Shown one piece after another: positions 35,581 to 46,433 of a stretch of DNA of 60,015 bases (positions are counted from its first letter, which is position 1; each line of letters opens with the position of its first letter). The notes beneath the pieces are model-generated. The model saw nothing but the letters and a program-made list of their open reading frames with translations, was not told the origin of the DNA and made no database searches. The DNA is from Acidobacteriota bacterium (GTDB lineage: Bacteria > Acidobacteriota > Vicinamibacteria > Vicinamibacterales > UBA8438), in contig VXRJ01000027.1 of the NCBI GenBank assembly GCA_009838525.1, positions 30,954 to 90,968 on the forward strand. The letters are read 5' to 3'. Made by a program: the position numbers and the translations under genes.

Positions 35581-38500
35581 TCAGGAAGATGTCCTGGCGA
35601 TGGGTGCGGCGACGCCATCCGCGGAGAGCGGCAGATCGGCCTGCTCGGTCACCACGGAGGCGCCGCGCCCGGACATCCATCGCAGCCCCCGCTGGATGTC
35701 GTCGAGGATGAGATAGGCGGTCGGCACCAGGATCAGCGTGATGAAAGTCGCGAACAGCACGCCGAACGCGAGGGAGACAGCCATCGGCACGAGGAAAGCC
35801 GCCTGCATGCTCCGTTCGAGCATCAATGGCGCCAGGCCGAAGAATGTCGTCAGCGACGTTAGCAGGATGGGTCGGAAACGGTTGCTGCCCGCTTCGCGGA
35901 TCGCGAGCTTGAGGCCGGTGGAGTCGAACTCGTCGCGGTCCGGCTGGGCGCCACCCGCCTTGCGAACGCGCCGGCCCACGTCGGCGTGCACGGCTCGCGC
36001 GCGGTTGATGAAATCGACCATGACCAGGCTGTCGTTGACGACCACCCCGGTCAGGGCGACGAGGCCGAACATCGACATCATCGTGACGTCGAGCCGCATA
36101 ATCATGTGTCCCCAGATGGCGCCCACCAGCCCGAACGGGATGGCTCCCATGATGATGAGCGGTTGCACGTAGGAACGGAGCGGCACCGCAAGCAGGGCGA
36201 AGATCATCAGCAGCGCGAGGACGAACCCGCGCTGCAGGCCGGAAACGGCGTCCACCTGTTCGGCTTGAGCGCCCTCGAACGTGTAGAAAACCCCCGGGTA
36301 ATCGCGGAGCAGTTCCGGGAGAATACGATTGTCCAGATCAGCAATGACTGCGTTCGCGGAGGTGACCGCCGGATCGACCGAGGCGGTGACGTTCACAGCG
36401 CGGTTCCGGTCGACGCGCTTGATCGATGCGAAGCCGCGGCCCGGCTCAACTTGGGCAACCTGGCTGAACGGTACCTCGCCGCCGTTGGGCGTTCGAATCC
36501 GCATGTTCTCCAGGTCTCCGAGTGACCTTCGTTCGTCCCTCGGATAACGCACCATGACGCGGATGTCGTCTCGTCCCCGCTGTATCCGCTGCGCTTCCTC
36601 CCCGTAGAAGGCCTGCCGGACCTGCCGGCCGAGATCCTGCAGCGTCAGACCGAGAGTTTCCGCCGCCGGCCTGATGCCGAGTTGCATCTCTTCCTTCCCG
36701 GCGCGGAAGGAGTCCGAGATCTCGTACACGCCGGTGTACTCGGCCAGCCGGCCCTTGACCGCTTCCGCCGCGGCGCGCAGGCGGTCGACATCCGGCCCGG
36801 CGAGCTGGACATCAACGTCGTCACCCGGAGTCATCAGGGACATGGAGAAATTGAGGTCGACGGCTTCCGGGATCGCTCCTGTGGCGTCCCGCCACATGCC
36901 ACCGAGTTGTTCGCTCGTGTACGAACGGGTCTCAGCAGGAGCGAGTTCGATAGTCACCTCACCCAGGTTTGACGCACTCACGCTCTGTACCGGGCCGAGT
37001 GGCCCGGGACCGCGTGCCGCCATCGGCTGATCGCCGATCGACGTGGACACGTGGCGGAAGTAGTCCATTCCGGTTTCCTGCAGGAGTCGCGCGCGGAGCC
37101 GCGCGGCGCCGTCCTCCATCTTCTCTACCGCCTGCGAGGTGACATCGGCCGGGGTGCCCTGCGGCATCGTCACCGACGCCGCCATGAAGTCGGCTTCGAT
37201 CGACGGGAAGAACTGGAAGTTGGTCCATCCGCCGACGACCATCCCGCCGGTCAGGATCAGAGTGCCCACCCCGGTGGCGGCGGTGACGTAGCGCCACTTG
37301 AGGGCCGTCTCCAGGAGCGGCTGGTAGACGTTCCGGATGAACGACTTCAGCCCGTTCGCGAACACCTGCTGGAACGAGTGCCAAGCGCCCGAACGACGCC
37401 GTTTGGACACGTGCGATAGATGAGCCGGGAGGATCCCCAGCGACTCCACGAGCGAGAAAAGCAGGCATGGGACGACAATGAGCGGAATGACCCGGAAGAT
37501 CTTCCCCATCATGCCCGGGACGAACATCAGCGGCATGAACGCCGCTACTGTCGTCAGCACCGCGAAGACGACCGGTTTCGCAATCTCTCGCGCGCCTTCG
37601 ATGGACCCCCGAAGGCCATCCCCATGGTTCTCCTGGTGCCGGAAGATGTTCTCGCCGACGATGATGGCGTCGTCCACCACGATCCCGAGGACGAGGATGA
37701 AGGCAAATAGCGAGATGACGTTCACCGTCACGTCGAACCCCGGCATGAGTGCGATGGCGCCCAGGAACGAGATCGGAATGCCCAGGCTCACCCAAAACGC
37801 GAGGCGGAACTGCAGGAAGAGCGCAAGTACTACGAATACCAGCACGAACCCGGTCGCGCCGTTGCGCAGCATCAGCACGAGACGGTCATTGAGCACTTCG
37901 GCCTGGTCCTGCCAGATCACCATCGAAACGCCGGTGGGCAGTTGGGCCTGCTTGTCCTCCACGTAGCGCGTGACGTCCTCCGCGATGTCCAGCGCGCTTT
38001 GATCTCCAGTCCGGAAGACCGACACCATGACCGTTGGGGCCCGATCGAACCGGGCGAACTGATCCGTTTCCTCGAACCCGTCAATCACGTTTGCCACATC
38101 GCCAAGACGCAGGCGGCTGCCGTCCGGACGCGTCCACAGGACCAGATCCTCATACTCGTTGCCGCGGTAGGCCTGACCGATCGTCCGCAGCAGGATTTCG
38201 CCACCGTCGGTGCGAACGGAGCCGCCCGGGAGATCGAGCGACGATCGCCGCACCGCGTCCGCCACCTGGTCGAACGTCATGCCGTGCCGGCGCAGGGCCA
38301 CTTCGGAGACTTCGATCGAGATCTCGTAAGGCGGCGCGCTGACCAGGTCGACCTGCGTAATGCTGGGCAGGGCCGACAACTCGTCCCGAACCTCCTCGCC
38401 GACCCCTTTGAGGGCGAAGATGTCCATCTGGCCGGCGATGGAGATGTCCACCACCTGGTTGCGCGCCAGCAACTCGCGGATGATTGGCTCTTCGGTCTCG

Positions 38501-38865
38501 AGCGGAAACGTCGTGATCGCGTCGACGTTGTTCTTGACCTCGTCGACCACCCGGCGGGAGTCGGCGCCGAGCTCGAGCTCGACGATGACCGACGCGCTGC
38601 CCTCGGAGGCGGTCGACACAATCTGCTTGATGCCGTCGATGCCCTGAATCGCCTCCTCGATCCGAAGTACGACCCCTTCCTCCACCTCTTCCGGGGCGGC
38701 TCCGAGGTAGGGCACCTGTATGCTGATGCGGTCGAGGTCCACTTCCGGAAAAACCTCTTCCGTAACCGCGGTAGTGGCGATAAGGCCGCTCGTGATGATG
38801 AAGACCATCATCAGATTGGCGGCGACGGGGTTTCGGGCGAACCAGGCGATTCCGCCGCTCTTCAT
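35581..38865 (-). CDS. RND efflux pump, inner-membrane permease (HAE1/AcrB-type)
   Basis: 1094 residues, full length, with twelve membrane helices and two large periplasmic loops. The proton-relay aspartates in helix 4 are present (LGIVVDDAIIVGEN), as are AGKEEMQLGIRPAAETL in the porter domain and PFGLVGAIWGHMIM near helix 10. It forms the trimeric pump of a tripartite system that exports hydrophobic or amphiphilic compounds. Its ATG overlaps the adaptor stop (ATGA). It is the last gene of the tetR-tolC-adaptor-pump operon. Substrates unknown. Confidence 0.95.
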   Translation of the reverse strand: MKSGGIAWFARNPVAANLMMVFIITSGLIATTAVTEEVFPEVDLDRISIQVPYLGAAPEEVEEGVVLRIEEAIQGIDGIKQIVSTASEGSASVIVELELGADSRRVVDEVKNNVDAITTFPLETEEPIIRELLARNQVVDISIAGQMDIFALKGVGEEVRDELSALPSITQVDLVSAPPYEISIEVSEVALRRHGMTFDQVADAVRRSSLDLPGGSVRTDGGEILLRTIGQAYRGNEYEDLVLWTRPDGSRLRLGDVANVIDGFEETDQFARFDRAPTVMVSVFRTGDQSALDIAEDVTRYVEDKQAQLPTGVSMVIWQDQAEVLNDRLVLMLRNGATGFVLVFVVLALFLQFRLAFWVSLGIPISFLGAIALMPGFDVTVNVISLFAFILVLGIVVDDAIIVGENIFRHQENHGDGLRGSIEGAREIAKPVVFAVLTTVAAFMPLMFVPGMMGKIFRVIPLIVVPCLLFSLVESLGILPAHLSHVSKRRRSGAWHSFQQVFANGLKSFIRNVYQPLLETALKWRYVTAATGVGTLILTGGMVVGGWTNFQFFPSIEADFMAASVTMPQGTPADVTSQAVEKMEDGAARLRARLLQETGMDYFRHVSTSIGDQPMAARGPGPLGPVQSVSASNLGEVTIELAPAETRSYTSEQLGGMWRDATGAIPEAVDLNFSMSLMTPGDDVDVQLAGPDVDRLRAAAEAVKGRLAEYTGVYEISDSFRAGKEEMQLGIRPAAETLGLTLQDLGRQVRQAFYGEEAQRIQRGRDDIRVMVRYPRDERRSLGDLENMRIRTPNGGEVPFSQVAQVEPGRGFASIKRVDRNRAVNVTASVDPAVTSANAVIADLDNRILPELLRDYPGVFYTFEGAQAEQVDAVSGLQRGFVLALLMIFALLAVPLRSYVQPLIIMGAIPFGLVGAIWGHMIMRLDVTMMSMFGLVALTGVVVNDSLVMVDFINRARAVHADVGRRVRKAGGAQPDRDEFDSTGLKLAIREAGSNRFRPILLTSLTTFFGLAPLMLERSMQAAFLVPMAVSLAFGVLFATFITLILVPTAYLILDDIQRGLRWMSGRGASVVTEQADLPLSADGVAAPIARTSS

Positions 38866-40877
38866 GCCTGCCCCCCATCCCGACGCGGAGCGGCGGCATC
38901 CGCGCCTCCGCCGCTGGCCCGCCCCGCCTCGCTGGCTAGCGCGTCTCGCACGCTGTCGGCCATCGCGTCCGCGACGCGCTCCTGAAGATCGGCCAGTGCC
39001 TCAACCGTGCCGTCGACCTTGACGGCCGAGATGACCGCGCCGTTACGCGCGTCGGTCAGTCGCGCCGTCACGCGGAGCATGGACCCGATGCGCTGGATGC
39101 CGCCACCAACCACCCACATCGCGTCGTCGCCACCCGCGATCACCCCGACCCCGGGCAGCGCCGCGAGTCGCGCCGTCACCGCCTCCGTGATGACGACACC
39201 GAGGTCCACGTCCAGTCCCGCCTCTCGACCCGAGCTCAGGTCATCGAACGGCAACACCGAGAGCGCGCTGATCGATGCTGCGGCCCGCCGCCGGTCTCGC
39301 GCCGTGTCCCTTGGCGCAGCAGGAACAGTCTCCGCGCGGGCCGCCACCTCTCCCGGGTCGACGGACCGATCAACGGACGGAGCTTCTCGTGCGGATGCGG
39401 ATGCCCGTTCGTTCCTCGCTGGACGGCCGTTTGCTCCGGCCGGCGGGGTCTCATCCAGGATCGCTTCCAGCCATTGCGGCAGTGCCTCAACGCGGGCTGA
39501 TTCCTGGTCGGATCCTTCGGCCGGGGCGGCCGGGGCGGCCGGGGCCGCCGCGGGAGCAGCCGTCGGCGCCGCAGCGCCGGTTGCGGGTTCCGCGCGGTCC
39601 GGAGCCGTGACGGCGGCGGGCGCGGCCCCGTCGGCCGGAGGGTCAGCACTGGAAGCCGGTCGCGCGTCCATCGCCGCTCCGTTCCTTCGCGCAAGCAGGG
39701 CGGGATCCGCAGCGGCAAGCTGCACCAGCATTCCGTCGGTCGGCGCGTCGAGCGGTGAGACTACGACGAGTTCACCCGCCACCAGTCCAGTTTCCACAAT
39801 CGCCGATTCCGCCGAGGTTCGGAGCACGTCGACGGTGCGGAACTCGAGCCGGTCGTCAGGCGTGACCACCAGCATCCGGTCACGGCCGCGCAGGGCCTCG
39901 CGCGGAAGCACGGCAACGCCGCGGGCCGTGCGCCCGCTGATCTCGGCCTCCACGTACATACCGACCGCAAGCGGGGGGCGGTCCGGATTCGCGCCCTGGG
40001 CGTACGGATCCGCGACCTCGGCGACGGCGTGGACCATGCGGCTCACCGAGTCGATCTCGCTTTCGGTGCGGACGATGCGCCCGTTCCACGAGTGTGTCTG
40101 GCCAGCGAACGTCGCGCGCAGGGTCACCTGCGGCTGCGCCTGCTGTTCGACGCCGCGATACGACAGTGGAAGGTCGAGATAAGCGAGCTCGTCATCGGGA
40201 AGCGGCAGCCGGATTTCCGCAAAATCGACCGCATAGACGGTGGCGACCGAGTCGCCCCTCCGAACGTACTGGCCGATATCGACGTTCTTGGCTCGCATGC
40301 GGCCGGCATACGGCGCAATAATCTCGGCCCGCTGGAGATCGCGTACGGCTCGCTCGACACCCGCTTCCGCCGCCGCCACGGCCGCGCGTGCGTCATCGAG
40401 CTGCGGCTTGCGCAACGCCAGTTCGCGCGGGTCGCCACGGCCGAGCGTTTCCCATTCCCTCTGCGCCACCTCCGCCTCGGCCTCTTCTTCGGCAAGGCGA
40501 AGACGTGCCTGCGCGAGTTGCGACCGTGCGCTGACGAGCTGCTGTTCGTAGTCGAACGGGTCGATCCGAACGAGCACGTCATCCGCTTCGAAGAACCCGC
40601 CCTCGACGAAGGAAGGCGCGACCCAGATCACGCGGCCGTCGATCTCGGAAACGAGCTGGCTCTCGGTACGTGGCCGGACCGTTCCCTGGCTCATGACGGT
40701 AAGCGGCGCGTCGGTCAGGGCGACCTCGTGGACGCGAACGCCCGGCGGCGTCACCACTGGCGCCAGTGTTTCCACCGGAGGCCGATTCCAGTACATCGTG
40801 AGCGCGATGAAGCCGGCCGCGGCAAGGATGATCAGCGGCAGCAGGGCCTGGAGGATGCGAAGGTGTAGGCGTTTCAT
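38862..40877 (-). CDS. RND periplasmic adaptor fused to a TolB/FlgO-like C-terminal domain
   Basis: 671 residues, against about 350-420 for normal adaptors. Residues 1-390 are a typical membrane-fusion protein: anchor helix (LLPLIILAAAGFIALTMYW), lipoyl halves (GTVRPRTESQLVSEIDGRV and AEIIAPYAGRMRAKNVDIGQ), a coiled-coil hairpin between them, beta-barrel, and membrane-proximal domain. Then comes a Pro/Ala-rich linker of about 140 residues, and residues about 535-655 form a compact domain with SISALSVLPFDDLSSGREAG, VVGGGIQRIGSMLRVTARL and TDARNGAVISAVKVDG. This is the pattern of the TolB-N/FlgO-like domain (COG5616-type). I know of no adaptor with this fusion. Overlaps tolC and pump genes by ATGA on both sides. 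Confidence 0.9.
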   Translation of the reverse strand: MKRLHLRILQALLPLIILAAAGFIALTMYWNRPPVETLAPVVTPPGVRVHEVALTDAPLTVMSQGTVRPRTESQLVSEIDGRVIWVAPSFVEGGFFEADDVLVRIDPFDYEQQLVSARSQLAQARLRLAEEEAEAEVAQREWETLGRGDPRELALRKPQLDDARAAVAAAEAGVERAVRDLQRAEIIAPYAGRMRAKNVDIGQYVRRGDSVATVYAVDFAEIRLPLPDDELAYLDLPLSYRGVEQQAQPQVTLRATFAGQTHSWNGRIVRTESEIDSVSRMVHAVAEVADPYAQGANPDRPPLAVGMYVEAEISGRTARGVAVLPREALRGRDRMLVVTPDDRLEFRTVDVLRTSAESAIVETGLVAGELVVVSPLDAPTDGMLVQLAAADPALLARRNGAAMDARPASSADPPADGAAPAAVTAPDRAEPATGAAAPTAAPAAAPAAPAAPAEGSDQESARVEALPQWLEAILDETPPAGANGRPARNERASASAREAPSVDRSVDPGEVAARAETVPAAPRDTARDRRRAAASISALSVLPFDDLSSGREAGLDVDLGVVITEAVTARLAALPGVGVIAGGDDAMWVVGGGIQRIGSMLRVTARLTDARNGAVISAVKVDGTVEALADLQERVADAMADSVRDALASEAGRASGGGADAAAPRRDGGQA

Positions 40878-42370
40878 GGGGCTATTCCATTCGATGCCGT
40901 TTCCGGCTCACTGGTGGTGCTGTCGCCGCGGCTGGCGATGGTGACCGGCGCCTCGAGTTGCTCGAAGCCGCCGCCGAGGGCCAGGTAGAGATCCACACGG
41001 TTTTCCAGGCGGAGGCGCTGGGCCGCGATGTGTTCCGACTCCGCCTGAAAGGCCGACCGCTGCGAGTCCAGGACGGTGATGTAGGTGTCGAGACCGGCCC
41101 GGTACCGTTCGTCGGCAAGGCGTTCCGCGGCGCGGGACTGCTCGACGGAGGTCGCGAGGTGGGTGACGCGGTCCGCCAGGTACTCCTCGGCCGCGAGCGC
41201 GGTCTCCACTTCGCTGTACGCCGTAAGTGCCGTGTTGACGTAGTTCGCGAGCACTTCGGCCACCTGTGCCTCAGCACGGTCGATGTCCACGCGCAACCGG
41301 CCGCCCTGCCAGAGTGGCGCGACGACGTTCGCCACGATGCCCCAGACGCCGAAATCGCCGTTCAGGAGGGAAAGCAGCGAGTTTGTGGCGGTGCCGGTGT
41401 TTGCGGTCAGGCTGATGCCGGGAAGGAGTTGACGCCGCGCCACATGCAGCCGGGCCTCGGAAGCGGCCACCTGCCGTTCGGCGGCGGCGAGGTCGGGACG
41501 CCTCGCCACCAGGTCCGCTGGTACGCCGCCCGGCACCGGCGGCGGCATCGCGGGCAGTTCCGACGGCGGCGTGATGTCCCCCGACGCATACCGGGCGAGC
41601 AGGAGGTCGAGCTGGCGCAGCGAGGCATCGAGCTGCCGCCGCCGCTCCGCGAGTTGCGCTTCGGCGTTCGATAGGTTGAGCAGGGCCAGCCGGAGATCCA
41701 GGGCGGGACGTACGCCCGCCTCGAAACGTTGCTGAACGACGTCGACCGACTCGCGGAAGCTGTCGACGGTTGCCTCTGACAGCAGTACCTGCTGGCGTGC
41801 CTCCGCGATCGCGAACCAGGTCTTGGCAGTCTGACCCGCGAGCGACAGCTGGGCGCCGCGCAGATCGGCGCCGACGCGCTGCAGGTCGGCGAGGGCCGCC
41901 TGCTCGGAAGTGCGAAGGCGACCCCAGAGATCGACTTCCCAGACCGTGTCGAGGGAGATTCCGTGGTTCGTGAAGACGGTGCTCAGGACGCGATCCCCAG
42001 CTCCCGGGATTGGGAACCCGATGAAGTTCTGCTTCCGGCGGATGCCGCTGTATGAAGCTTGCAGGCTGGGGTTCAGTGCGCTCGCTGCCGCGCGGGCGTC
42101 CGCCGCGGCTATCTCGAGGCGCGCGGCCGCCGCTTGCAGGTCCAGATTGCGAGTGAGCGCATTGTGGATCGCTTGTGAGAGTTCTTCGTCGCTGAACGCC
42201 GTCCACCAGTCGGGCGCCACCTGGCCGGCCGGGATCTCGCCGGCGGTCCAGTCGTCGGGCAGGCTCACGCTTATCTCCGGTCGTTCGACCGGAGGCGCGG
42301 TGATGGCGCACCCCGCCGCGAGCGTTGCGGCCGCAAACAGGAAGAGCCGTAGCGCCGTTCGGATCATCAT
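40874..42370 (-). CDS. TolC-family outer membrane efflux lipoprotein (NodT type)
   Basis: 498 residues. Lipobox LAAGC (Cys21) gives an outer-membrane lipoprotein. Two OEP repeats follow, with WWTAFSDEELSQAIHNAL, LDLQAAAARLEIAAADARAA, AARRPDLAAAERQV-like (VARRPDLAAAERQVAASEA) and ERYRAGLDTYITVLDSQR. It is the outer-membrane channel for the RND pump. Start ATG 42370 overlaps the TetR stop (ATGA) and its stop overlaps the adaptor ATG. ATG 42367 is possible. Confidence 0.94.
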   Translation of the reverse strand: MMIRTALRLFLFAAATLAAGCAITAPPVERPEISVSLPDDWTAGEIPAGQVAPDWWTAFSDEELSQAIHNALTRNLDLQAAAARLEIAAADARAAASALNPSLQASYSGIRRKQNFIGFPIPGAGDRVLSTVFTNHGISLDTVWEVDLWGRLRTSEQAALADLQRVGADLRGAQLSLAGQTAKTWFAIAEARQQVLLSEATVDSFRESVDVVQQRFEAGVRPALDLRLALLNLSNAEAQLAERRRQLDASLRQLDLLLARYASGDITPPSELPAMPPPVPGGVPADLVARRPDLAAAERQVAASEARLHVARRQLLPGISLTANTGTATNSLLSLLNGDFGVWGIVANVVAPLWQGGRLRVDIDRAEAQVAEVLANYVNTALTAYSEVETALAAEEYLADRVTHLATSVEQSRAAERLADERYRAGLDTYITVLDSQRSAFQAESEHIAAQRLRLENRVDLYLALGGGFEQLEAPVTIASRGDSTTSEPETASNGIAP

Positions 42371-43035
42371 CGCCTCGCACCCGCGCCGGCAACCACCCGG
42401 GCCGGCGCCGCGGCATGGGAAGACGCCGCCGTCATGCCGGCGGCGGTGTACCGGACGAGCGACTCGAGCACGTTCTCGGGAACGTGCCCGGCGTCTTCCC
42501 GCCCGATGAGCATCGGCCCCCACGACATCGTGAACGACATGGAGCCGATCATGAAGAGCATCCGCCAGTTCACGTCGGGATGGTCGGGCAGCGCGTGCTG
42601 GAGGGCCGCCTGAAAACGCTGGCGGACCTCATCGAACTGTTCCACCAGCATCGCGCGGAAGGCCTCGTTCGTCTCGGCGTGAATCCGCCCCACCAGGCGG
42701 AGGAACGACACCTGCGCGTCGGCGCTCCATGCGCGCTGCCGCTCGAAAGGTGGCAACAGGAACGCGCGCACCACTTCTTCGATTGGCGGCGGGTCTTCTC
42801 CCGCGCGTGCATTCACGGCGTCCAGCATCGCGAGGCGCTCCCTATTGATTGGCCGGAACCGCCGCTCGAGCACCGCCTCCAGCAACGCCTCCTTGGATCC
42901 GAAGTGGTAGTTCACCGAGGCGACGTTGACGCCCGCCCCGGCGGTGATGTCGCGAAGCGACGTCGAGGCGAAGCCCCGCTCGCCGAACAGTCGCTCCGCC
43001 GCGTCCAGGATCCGTTCCTTGGTGCCGGTTGCCAT
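42367..43035 (-). CDS. TetR/AcrR-family repressor of the efflux operon
   Basis: 222 residues. N-terminal TetR HTH: RILDAAERLFGERGFASTSL followed by TAGAGVNVASVNYHFGSKEA. The C-terminal part (LLPPFERQRAWSADAQVSFLRLVGR ... SMSFTMSW) is like the CerR/TetR_C_36 type. It is the first gene of the operon, so it most likely represses itself and the pump genes. A near-palindrome with AAACAGTTGTTT overlaps its own start codon (43034-43058), the likely operator. Confidence 0.94.
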   Translation of the reverse strand: MATGTKERILDAAERLFGERGFASTSLRDITAGAGVNVASVNYHFGSKEALLEAVLERRFRPINRERLAMLDAVNARAGEDPPPIEEVVRAFLLPPFERQRAWSADAQVSFLRLVGRIHAETNEAFRAMLVEQFDEVRQRFQAALQHALPDHPDVNWRMLFMIGSMSFTMSWGPMLIGREDAGHVPENVLESLVRYTAAGMTAASSHAAAPARVVAGAGARR

Positions 43036-43347: not shown

Positions 43348-44004
43348 ATGGGAGACGCGGCTCACACGCACATGAGTAGTGAGGAGTGCCAGGCCCAACA
43401 GCCGGGCGTCTCGCGACGGGGCTTTATCAAGGGCGTTATCGCGACCGGCGCAAGCGTGTCGGCGTCCGGCTACGTCCTGCGGAACAACGGCATTGTGCTG
43501 GCGCAGGCGCCGGGCGCGGTCGAGCGGCTCGTGACGCTCAACGTCAACGGGCAGCAGCGGCGCGTCGACGTCATGCCGCAGGAAACGCTGGCGATGACAC
43601 TGCGCTACAAGCTGGGGCTCACCGGCACGAAGATCGGTTGCGACCGTGCCGAGTGCGGCGCCTGCACCGTTCTGGTCGATGGGGTCCCGCAGTACTCCTG
43701 CTCGACGCTTACTCATCAGGTGCGCGGGCGCGAGGTTCTGACGATCGAGGGCCTCGAGAGCGCCGATGGGACGCTGCACCCGGTGCAGCAGGCGGTGGTC
43801 GACTTGCAGGGCTTCCAGTGTGCGTTCTGCATGTCGGGGTTCGTGATGAACATGGTCGCGCTCACCGAGGAGAACCCGAACGCTACGCGTGGCGAGGCGG
43901 CCCACCACCTGGCCGGCAACATCTGCCGGTGCATCGACTACAACAAGATCCTCAACGTCGCAGAGAAGGCGTGCGAGTACACGCGTAACGGGATGAGGAG
44001 CTGA
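43348..44004 (+). CDS. periplasmic Mo-hydroxylase [2Fe-2S] subunit, Tat-exported
   Basis: 218 residues. Tat motif SRRGFIK (22-28) heads a leader ending near AQA. The plant-type [2Fe-2S] cluster uses Cys98, 103, 106, 118 and the second cluster Cys158, 161, 193, 195 (CAFC and CRC). This is the small subunit of the xanthine oxidase family, most like PaoA or isoquinoline-1-oxidoreductase. It carries the only Tat signal among the three subunits, so it should bring the folded complex across the membrane. AGGAGG precedes ATG 43348. The Moco subunit gene follows after two bases. Confidence 0.94.
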   Translation: MGDAAHTHMSSEECQAQQPGVSRRGFIKGVIATGASVSASGYVLRNNGIVLAQAPGAVERLVTLNVNGQQRRVDVMPQETLAMTLRYKLGLTGTKIGCDRAECGACTVLVDGVPQYSCSTLTHQVRGREVLTIEGLESADGTLHPVQQAVVDLQGFQCAFCMSGFVMNMVALTEENPNATRGEAAHHLAGNICRCIDYNKILNVAEKACEYTRNGMRS

Positions 44005-44006
44005 CG

Positions 44007-46433
44007 ATGGCTGACTTCAAGCTGATCGGCAAGAACTACACGACGCCCGACATTCTCGCCAAGGTGACGGGACGGGCGAAGTACGCGGAGGATTTCCGTG
44101 CGGAGGGGATGGTCTTCGCGAAGCTGCTCCTCAGCCCGATGCCGCATGCGCGGGTCCGGCGGATGGACACCAGCGCGGCGCTGGCGATGCCGGGAGTCGA
44201 GGGCATCCTGACGGCCGACGACCTCGAGCCGGCGGAAGCTCCTCAGGAGGCGGGTCTCACCAACGAGCCGCTCTATGAGGGCGAGCCGATTCTCGCTGTT
44301 GCGGCGGTCGACGAGGAGACCGCGGCCGAGGCTATCGAAGCGATCGACATCGACTTCGAGCCGCTGCCGTTCGTTCTCGATCCGCTCGAGAGCCTGCGGC
44401 CGGGCGGTCCGAACGCGCGCCTCGACGGCAACACGATGGTGGGTCGCGACCTGTCGACCATCAAGTGGGACAACGTCGACTGGAGCGAGATCGACCGTGG
44501 CATCCTGCCGACCAACGGCGAGATGACCGACGAGTGGCAGGTGGGCGACGTGGAGGCGGGCTTCGCGGCGTCGGACCTGGTGCTTGACGAAACGGTCTTC
44601 TCGGCGTCGCTGTCGCACCAGCCGCTCGAGACCCGGACGGCGATGGCCTACTGGCAGAACGGCAAGTGCTACATGCACGCCTCGACCCAGAGCACCGCCC
44701 GGACCGAGGCCGGCATGGCTCGCTGGATAGGCGTCGACCCGACCGATCTGGTGCTCCTCACCGAGTACTGTGGCGGGGGCTTCGGCAGCAAGATCGCCGC
44801 GTCGATTCAGTCGCGGATCCCGGCGCTGCTGTCCCGCAAGATCGGCAAGCCCGTCATGATGCGGGTGACGCGGCAGGAAGAGAACTTCTTCGGTCGCGCG
44901 CGACCGGGTATCCAGTGCCGCGCCAAGTTCGGTTTCCGGAGCGACGGCAGGATCCTGGCGATGGATCTGGCCCTCGTTCAGGATGGCGGTCCCTACGGGC
45001 GTTCGGGCGACTACATGTCATGCGCCGATCAGGCGTCGCTCATGTATATGCCGGAGCACGCGCGGGTTCGCGGCATCACCGTCTACACCAACACGCCGCC
45101 ACGCGGGGCGCAACGGGCGCCGGGCGGTGTGCAGGCGGTGGCGATGTATGCCCCGATCGTCGACAAGGCGGCCCGGCAACTCGGTGTGGACCGGCTCGAC
45201 ATCATCGAGTTGAACGCGCCGGAGGGCCAGGCCCTGTTCGGGCGTCCGCGGCAGGGACAGCAGAGCAACGTCTCGGGCGCCTTCCCGAAGGAGGCCATCC
45301 AGAAGGCTCGCACCGAGTTCGACTGGGCAGGCATGATGGCGCGGAGCGGTCAGCGCAACGGCACCAAGGTGACCGGCATCGGTGCGGCCATCAGTTCCTA
45401 CTCGGCCGGCACATCGGGTGTCGACGGCCTGCTGGTCATCCGTCCCGACGGGATGGTGGAGATTCATACCGGCGTCGGCAACCTCGGCACCGAGTCGTTC
45501 TCCGACACGTCGCGCGCCGCGATGGAGGCGCTCGACACGCCGTGGGAGCAGGCCGAAGTGGTCTGGGGCGACACCAGTAAGCACCTTCCCTGGAGCGCCA
45601 TTCAGGGTGGCAGCCAGACGACCCATGGCCATACCAGGTCGAACTGGGCCGCCGGCCTCGAGGCGAAGAAGCGCCTCCAGGAGATTGCGGCAGACCGGTT
45701 CGGCGGATCGCCCGACAGCTTCGAGGTGTCGGACGGCCGCGTCTACCGGCGTGGCAACCGGGGTCAGGGGATGACCTTCGCCCAGGCGTCCGAGCGCGCC
45801 ATCGAAATGGGTGGCGTCTATGACGGCTCGGTTCTGCCGGAGGACCTCAACGAGATGACCACCCGGTCCGCAACTGGGCTGCAGGGGCAGGGTCTCGTGG
45901 TTGCCGCCAAGGACAACTTCGAGACCGGCGGCCGGAACATCTCCTTCTGCATCGGCTTCGCCGAGGTCGAGGTGGACATCGAGACCGGGGCGGTGGAGTT
46001 GAAGGACTACAAGGTGGCCTCGGACGCCGGGACCATCCTGCATCCGCAGAACTTCGGCGGCCAGGTGCACGGTGGTGGCATCCAGGGCTTCGGCGTGGCC
46101 CTTGGACAGAAGTGGGTCATGGACCCGCAGTGGGGGCTGCACGTCGCCAAGCGGTTCTACTCGAACCGTCCGCCGACGATTCTGGATTCTCCACACGATT
46201 CGGAGATGGGGTGGCTCAATGCCGACGAGCCGGATCCGTTCTCCCCGATCGGGGCGAAGGGTATCGGTGAGGCGCCCGTCGGCGCCGGCACCGGCGCGGT
46301 GCTGAACGCCATTTCGGATGCCCTGGGTGGCGATGTAGATTTCAATCGCTCGCCGATCATGCGCGACATGATCCTCACGAAGCTCAATCCTGAGCTGACC
46401 GAGGCCCACAACAAGCTGACGACGCACGTGTAG
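44007..46433 (+). CDS. Mo-hydroxylase molybdopterin subunit (xanthine oxidase family)
   Basis: 808 residues. N-terminal hammerhead domain (KVTGRAKYAEDFRAEGMVFA) and two Moco-binding domains: CGGGFGSKIAASIQ, NTPPRGAQRAPGG, and the catalytic-Glu loop KGIGEAPVGAGTGAV near the C-terminus. It hydroxylates an aldehyde or an aromatic heterocycle with water as oxygen source. No signal peptide is present; export with the FeS subunit is expected. Substrate cannot be told from the motif alone. It lies between the FeS and FAD subunit genes; the order FeS-Moco-FAD differs from E. coli paoABC. Confidence 0.95.
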   Translation: MADFKLIGKNYTTPDILAKVTGRAKYAEDFRAEGMVFAKLLLSPMPHARVRRMDTSAALAMPGVEGILTADDLEPAEAPQEAGLTNEPLYEGEPILAVAAVDEETAAEAIEAIDIDFEPLPFVLDPLESLRPGGPNARLDGNTMVGRDLSTIKWDNVDWSEIDRGILPTNGEMTDEWQVGDVEAGFAASDLVLDETVFSASLSHQPLETRTAMAYWQNGKCYMHASTQSTARTEAGMARWIGVDPTDLVLLTEYCGGGFGSKIAASIQSRIPALLSRKIGKPVMMRVTRQEENFFGRARPGIQCRAKFGFRSDGRILAMDLALVQDGGPYGRSGDYMSCADQASLMYMPEHARVRGITVYTNTPPRGAQRAPGGVQAVAMYAPIVDKAARQLGVDRLDIIELNAPEGQALFGRPRQGQQSNVSGAFPKEAIQKARTEFDWAGMMARSGQRNGTKVTGIGAAISSYSAGTSGVDGLLVIRPDGMVEIHTGVGNLGTESFSDTSRAAMEALDTPWEQAEVVWGDTSKHLPWSAIQGGSQTTHGHTRSNWAAGLEAKKRLQEIAADRFGGSPDSFEVSDGRVYRRGNRGQGMTFAQASERAIEMGGVYDGSVLPEDLNEMTTRSATGLQGQGLVVAAKDNFETGGRNISFCIGFAEVEVDIETGAVELKDYKVASDAGTILHPQNFGGQVHGGGIQGFGVALGQKWVMDPQWGLHVAKRFYSNRPPTILDSPHDSEMGWLNADEPDPFSPIGAKGIGEAPVGAGTGAVLNAISDALGGDVDFNRSPIMRDMILTKLNPELTEAHNKLTTHV

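Follow-up and report, generated by a model that had tools for sequence, protein, structure and literature searches.

An RND efflux adaptor with a C-terminal TolB-N/FlgO-like domain in one family of Acidobacteriota

The stretch of DNA analysed here (the window) comprises 60,015 nucleotides of an Acidobacteriota bacterium and contains a compact operon on the minus strand with the gene order TetR, OprM-like channel, adaptor and RND pump. The first gene (42367..43035) encodes a TetR-family regulator with TetR_N and TetR_C_30 domains. It is followed by a TolC/OprM-like outer-membrane channel with the N-terminal lipobox LAAGC (40874..42370; OEP 159 bits, TIGR01845 311 bits), the periplasmic adaptor (38862..40877) and a pump of the AcrB family with 1094 amino acids (35581..38865; Pfam ACR_tran 544 bits), all on the minus strand. 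The stop codon of the channel gene overlaps the start of the adaptor gene, whose own stop overlaps the start of the pump gene in the sequence ATGA. The adaptor gene, read from 40877 to 38862, begins with ATG and forms a single uninterrupted open reading frame of 671 codons. Beside the efflux operon, at 43348-46433, the translations indicate a probable 2Fe-2S subunit and a molybdopterin-type oxidoreductase.

The 671-residue product is an RND periplasmic adaptor by its score with the RND adaptor model TIGR01730 (130.2 bits at residues 47-386, cut-off 94.9), by its core architecture and by its operon with pump and channel. In the full-length AlphaFold model, the core (residues 1-390; 39708..40877, minus strand), which also matches HlyD_3, is that of a normal adaptor, with a membrane helix at residues 2-30, an alpha-hairpin at 108-182, and the beta regions of the barrel and membrane-proximal parts modelled at high confidence. 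Core fold, membrane anchor and operon are shared with AcrA, MexA and MdtA. In contrast to these, and to plain orthologues of 394-434 amino acids that end shortly after the core, the window protein continues for ca. 250-280 residues at its C-terminus and ends in an additional domain. The first-pass annotation had described an adaptor about 250 residues longer than normal with a Pro/Ala linker of about 140 residues, and both statements are borne out.

The linker (residues 391-534; 39276..39707, minus strand) has ca. 144 residues, of which 46% are proline or alanine, and is predicted to be disordered, with pLDDT values below 50 at residues 406-468 and 475-534. It includes a conserved short motif, PQWLEAIL (residues 467-474; 39456..39479, minus strand), with a predicted short helix at 469-473. 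The same motif type, PxWLxxLL, is found in genera g1, g2 and g9 and in the adaptor on contig L009, while in the remaining genera the linker carries the motif DPSxSRxEQIAAIRRQLAxL, sometimes in 2-3 repeats (as in L011 and L070). These short conserved motifs look like docking helices. In the genome G005 the linker is reduced to just 38 residues.

C-terminal to the linker, the full-length model is well folded at about residues 535-655 (38913..39275, minus strand). The motif VLPFDDLSSG, together with VVGGGIQRIGSMLRVTARLTD and ALADLQERVADAMADSV, had led to the proposal of a TolB-N/FlgO-like domain, and all three were located at about residues 541-640. The window domain itself (residues 536-671) gave no Pfam match at E values up to 10 and no direct match in NCBIfam or among PDB sequences; its identity therefore rests on its orthologues and on the fold. 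Orthologous domains exceed the Pfam cut-offs: those of L015 score 27.1 with TolB_N (cut-off 22.4) and 24.6 with FlgO (cut-off 22.6), that of L011 scores 26.8 with TolB_N, and that of L020 reaches 31.1 with FlgO. A search of the organism's own genome with the window domain returned paralogues at E values of 8e-14 to 7e-5, and five paralogous domains each pass the curated cut-off of TolB_N or FlgO. A seventh match in this genome (L007), to an ATPase-like protein, was rejected as a chance hit. The domain profile, which was built including the window domain, scores 121 bits on the window protein, and twelve positions are invariant (V12, F15, G63, G64, Q66, G69, R73, T75, R77, K91, D93 and G94).

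Structure models, built on 11-15 sequences, agree with this identity. The domain-only AlphaFold model, based on 11 homologous domains, has a pLDDT of 88.6 and a pTM of 0.82 and shows the element order beta-alpha-beta-beta-beta-beta-alpha. With Foldseek it matches TolB (3.6e-6), PelC (5.7e-6) and LpoB (2.6e-5), as well as GNA1162, FlgT and CsgG, and VIA-align gave Z scores of 12.7 with FlgT (128 residues, rmsd 4.2), 11.8 with TolB (105 residues, rmsd 2.8), 11.1 with CsgG (114 residues, rmsd 3.0), 10.8 with PelC (105 residues, rmsd 2.9) and 10.4 with TraT. Hence, judged from the models and the profiles of its orthologues, the predicted domain belongs to the TolB-N/FlgO/LpoB fold superfamily; the first-pass annotation had allowed that structural similarity to TolB-N/FlgO might be lacking, and the fold matches. 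The N-terminal domain of TolB, FlgO, FlgT, PelC and CsgG thus share the fold, TolB_N and FlgO also by sequence profile via the orthologues. The resemblance ends with the domain: in the full-length model no beta-propeller follows it as it does in TolB, and whereas FlgO is an outer-membrane flagellar lipoprotein, the window protein has no lipobox and is a TM-anchored adaptor encoded in a pump operon.

Within the organism's family, an orthologue of the adaptor was found in 24 of 28 genomes. Wherever the 3' end of the gene could be read, which was the case in 17 of these genomes, the adaptor is fused (17/17); the family's other genes are cut by contig ends. Fifteen of the 17 carry two tandem domains, and two, the window gene and G005, carry one. 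Among the Acidobacteria MAGs in which a scan of named genomes found the same adaptor, L011, L012, L013, L015 and L020 have the domain in two tandem copies. In the domain tree the window domain groups with the second domains, which makes it most likely that the window adaptor has lost domain 1. Orthologues from the other families of the order and from ca. 20 families of the phylum have 39-59% identity, and all those examined are plain, except for the AMIN cases described below; of the other phylum matches, the open-frame length was read. The larger group appears to be Vicinamibacterales. Open frames of more than 500 amino acids in other families were, the AMIN cases excepted, traced to 5' overextension. 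Most plain orthologues outside the family sit in the same TetR-channel-adaptor-pump operon, and the flanks of plain adaptors that were read contain no separate FlgO-domain gene that might have been the donor of the fusion. In the genomes sampled, most of them metagenome-assembled, the fusion is a trait of one family.

As the contigs of many MAGs break off within the linker or the domains of the fused-adaptor gene, draft genomes probably under-report the fusion. The same adaptor, with 70% identity and the start of the extra domain, is encoded on a 4.2-kb contig (L009) that was binned as Pseudomonadales, a case of mis-binning or transfer. The first-pass annotation knew of no described example, and likewise we found no published description of an RND adaptor with a TolB/FlgO-domain tail in the open-access literature.

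The origin of the domain was addressed by its other hosts. In the window's genome it is found at the N-terminus of five secreted CBM9/DUF5916-like proteins (L002-L006), a label assigned from sequence with no profile match behind it. Related genomes contain many more copies, and the window's genome also encodes a separate protein with TolB_N and a propeller-like part (L112). In other families of the order, the same domain occurs in kinase-TPR and winged-helix-TPR proteins that, judged from their translations, are apparently cytoplasmic. The expectation that such a domain is usually attached to regulators and TPR proteins hence holds for these other families; in the organism's own, the CBM9/DUF5916 host is commoner. 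A tree of 48 domains places those of all adaptors in a single group (support 94/83) beside the CBM9/DUF5916 domains; as the tree is unrooted, the direction of transfer is inferred. The donor of the fusion looks more like the secreted CBM9/DUF5916 proteins, and a single domain capture followed by one or more tandem duplications is the likely course. Between close relatives, a simple counting method gave dN/dS ratios of 0.10-0.19 in the adaptor core, of 0.07-0.43 in the domains and of 0.33-0.61 in the linker. These values indicate purifying selection on the domains and a linker that appears mostly unconstrained, its two short motifs excepted.

A separate gene in G007 (L031 from base 541, G007:C220) encodes a membrane anchor, a linker with the motif DPSxSRxEQIAAIRRQLAxL and two domains, with no adaptor core. 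Such a protein lends support to the idea that the linker and the domains work together as one module in the periplasm, from an anchor in the inner membrane.

A second fusion was found in family f54 of the same phylum, where in 7 of 23 species (L103, L104, L127-L133) the same adaptor is extended at this position by an AMIN domain (Pfam 25-26 bits, cut-off 20.5) that follows a Pro-rich linker. AMIN, known from proteins such as AmiC and PilQ, is a different domain and has been described as peptidoglycan-binding (PMC10653833). The f54 fusion thus parallels that of the window and arose independently at the corresponding end of this adaptor. That two unrelated periplasmic domains occupy one position suggests a common type of task, and the described peptidoglycan binding of AMIN points to the wall as its place. 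The AMIN fusion would favour a contact of the TolB-N/FlgO-like domain with the wall or envelope over cargo sensing.

Taken together, we propose that the operon encodes a standard tripartite RND pump whose adaptor carries a flexible periplasmic tether, which would attach the hub of adaptor and channel to the wall, to a partner bound there or to the outer membrane; we consider this reading to have an even chance of being correct. The tether would consist of the long disordered linker, leaving the adaptor at its membrane-proximal end, and the domains with the TolB-N/FlgO/LpoB fold, one in the window protein and two in most relatives. AcrA-type pumps contain six adaptors, and a hexamer of the fused adaptor would display 6-12 domains on flexible arms. 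By a rough estimate, a disordered chain of 140 residues spans ca. 10 nm on average and up to ca. 50 nm when fully extended; from the membrane-proximal end the arms may thus reach the peptidoglycan and, if extended, the outer membrane. There, the domains may bind a fixed component of the envelope, such as peptidoglycan, an outer-membrane protein or a protein of wall synthesis, and so keep the complex of adaptor and channel fixed across the wall. The tether is supported by the AMIN fusion, the stand-alone version in G007, the conservation throughout the family and the layout of LpoB, an activator of the wall synthase PBP1B in which a disordered linker likewise precedes a globular TolB-N-like domain in the periplasm (PMC7267771). 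LpoB differs in being an outer-membrane lipoprotein with no pump part, while the window protein has an N-terminal TM helix and no lipobox.

Some observations do not fit the tether well. Its fold family has many functions, among them TolA binding, PBP activation and the formation of secretion rings, so that the fold does not give the function, and the presence of the same domain in the apparently cytoplasmic TPR proteins shows that it is not intrinsically a wall binder. A linker as short as that of G005 is also not what one would expect of a tether of fixed reach. The way in which tripartite pumps cross the peptidoglycan layer and are positioned in it is poorly understood. As two families carry different envelope-type domains, TolB-N/FlgO and AMIN, on the same adaptor, and plain orthologues can serve as controls, deletion and domain swaps offer a direct test of what a tie to the envelope brings to an adaptor.

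Other roles of the domain were considered. In one of them, the domains of a pump, 6 or 12 in number, would encircle the outer-membrane channel as a ring or collar, as PelC, CsgG and FlgT do in their machines. The high Z scores with these ring-formers and with TraT agree with this, as does the arithmetic, since two domains on each of six adaptors would give twelve, and PelC assembles as a ring of twelve subunits (PMC12141448). However, the window gene and G005 encode one domain only, and ring formation is not known for TolB-N and LpoB, whose fold is the same, which leaves a ring rather unlikely. In a second alternative, the domain would act like LpoB, whose partner is the UB2H domain of PBP1B; it would bind and activate a synthase or a hydrolase of peptidoglycan and thereby allow the pump to be assembled across the wall. 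While the common layout of linker and domain (PMC7267771) and the Foldseek match to LpoB are in line with such a recruiter, LpoB sits on the outer membrane and the window module on the inner one, and we regard it as unlikely.

A sensor of cargo would have a precedent in SilB of Cupriavidus metallidurans, an RND adaptor that is likewise extended by a further domain at its C-terminus (PMC4446572), and several pumps of one clade coexist in the genomes studied here. The domain of SilB is, however, a CusF-like metal chaperone, whereas that of the window protein has a TolB-N-like fold on a long disordered linker. Its invariant residues look structural and are largely common to non-adaptor homologues, and AMIN, the alternative in f54, is no ligand binder; sensing is hence quite improbable. 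That the domain is a passenger, gained once and kept with no function in efflux, would agree with the poorly conserved linker sequence and the lost domain 1 of the window gene. As purifying selection acts on the domains, which every readable member of the family has retained, and as AMIN was independently fused at the same place, this is very unlikely. A frameshift or an assembly error joining two genes, which the first-pass annotation had raised as a caveat, has virtually no probability left: MAG contigs do often break in the linker, but nothing was found in its favour, and the fusion recurs in 17 independent genomes and runs in a continuous frame in many, including the three-contig genome G003.

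The number of pumps relative to adaptors bears on the partners of the tethered adaptor. The window's genome encodes four RND pumps of this clade, with 100, 80, 68 and 67% identity to the window pump, and a single adaptor of this family. For two of these pumps (L119, L120) no adaptor or channel lies within about 6-7 kb, and a third (L121) is back to back with the adaptor of another pump. By one score threshold, eight further genomes of the family have 1-7 clade pumps each, and in each of the six plain-adaptor genomes tested the count is exactly one. Family genomes usually have several close pumps but one fused adaptor, a hint that this adaptor may serve more than one pump, and the fixed hub may then be common to several same-clade pumps of the genome. 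A tentative extension of the tether would be a wall-anchored efflux hub, in which TolB-N/FlgO domains (AMIN in the other family) would anchor one adaptor and its channel to the wall or outer membrane, and several adaptor-less RND pumps would share this pair and dock in turn; we consider this possible but doubtful. In G003, the fused adaptor and the channel are encoded apart from the pump gene (L122), which is sited elsewhere in the genome.
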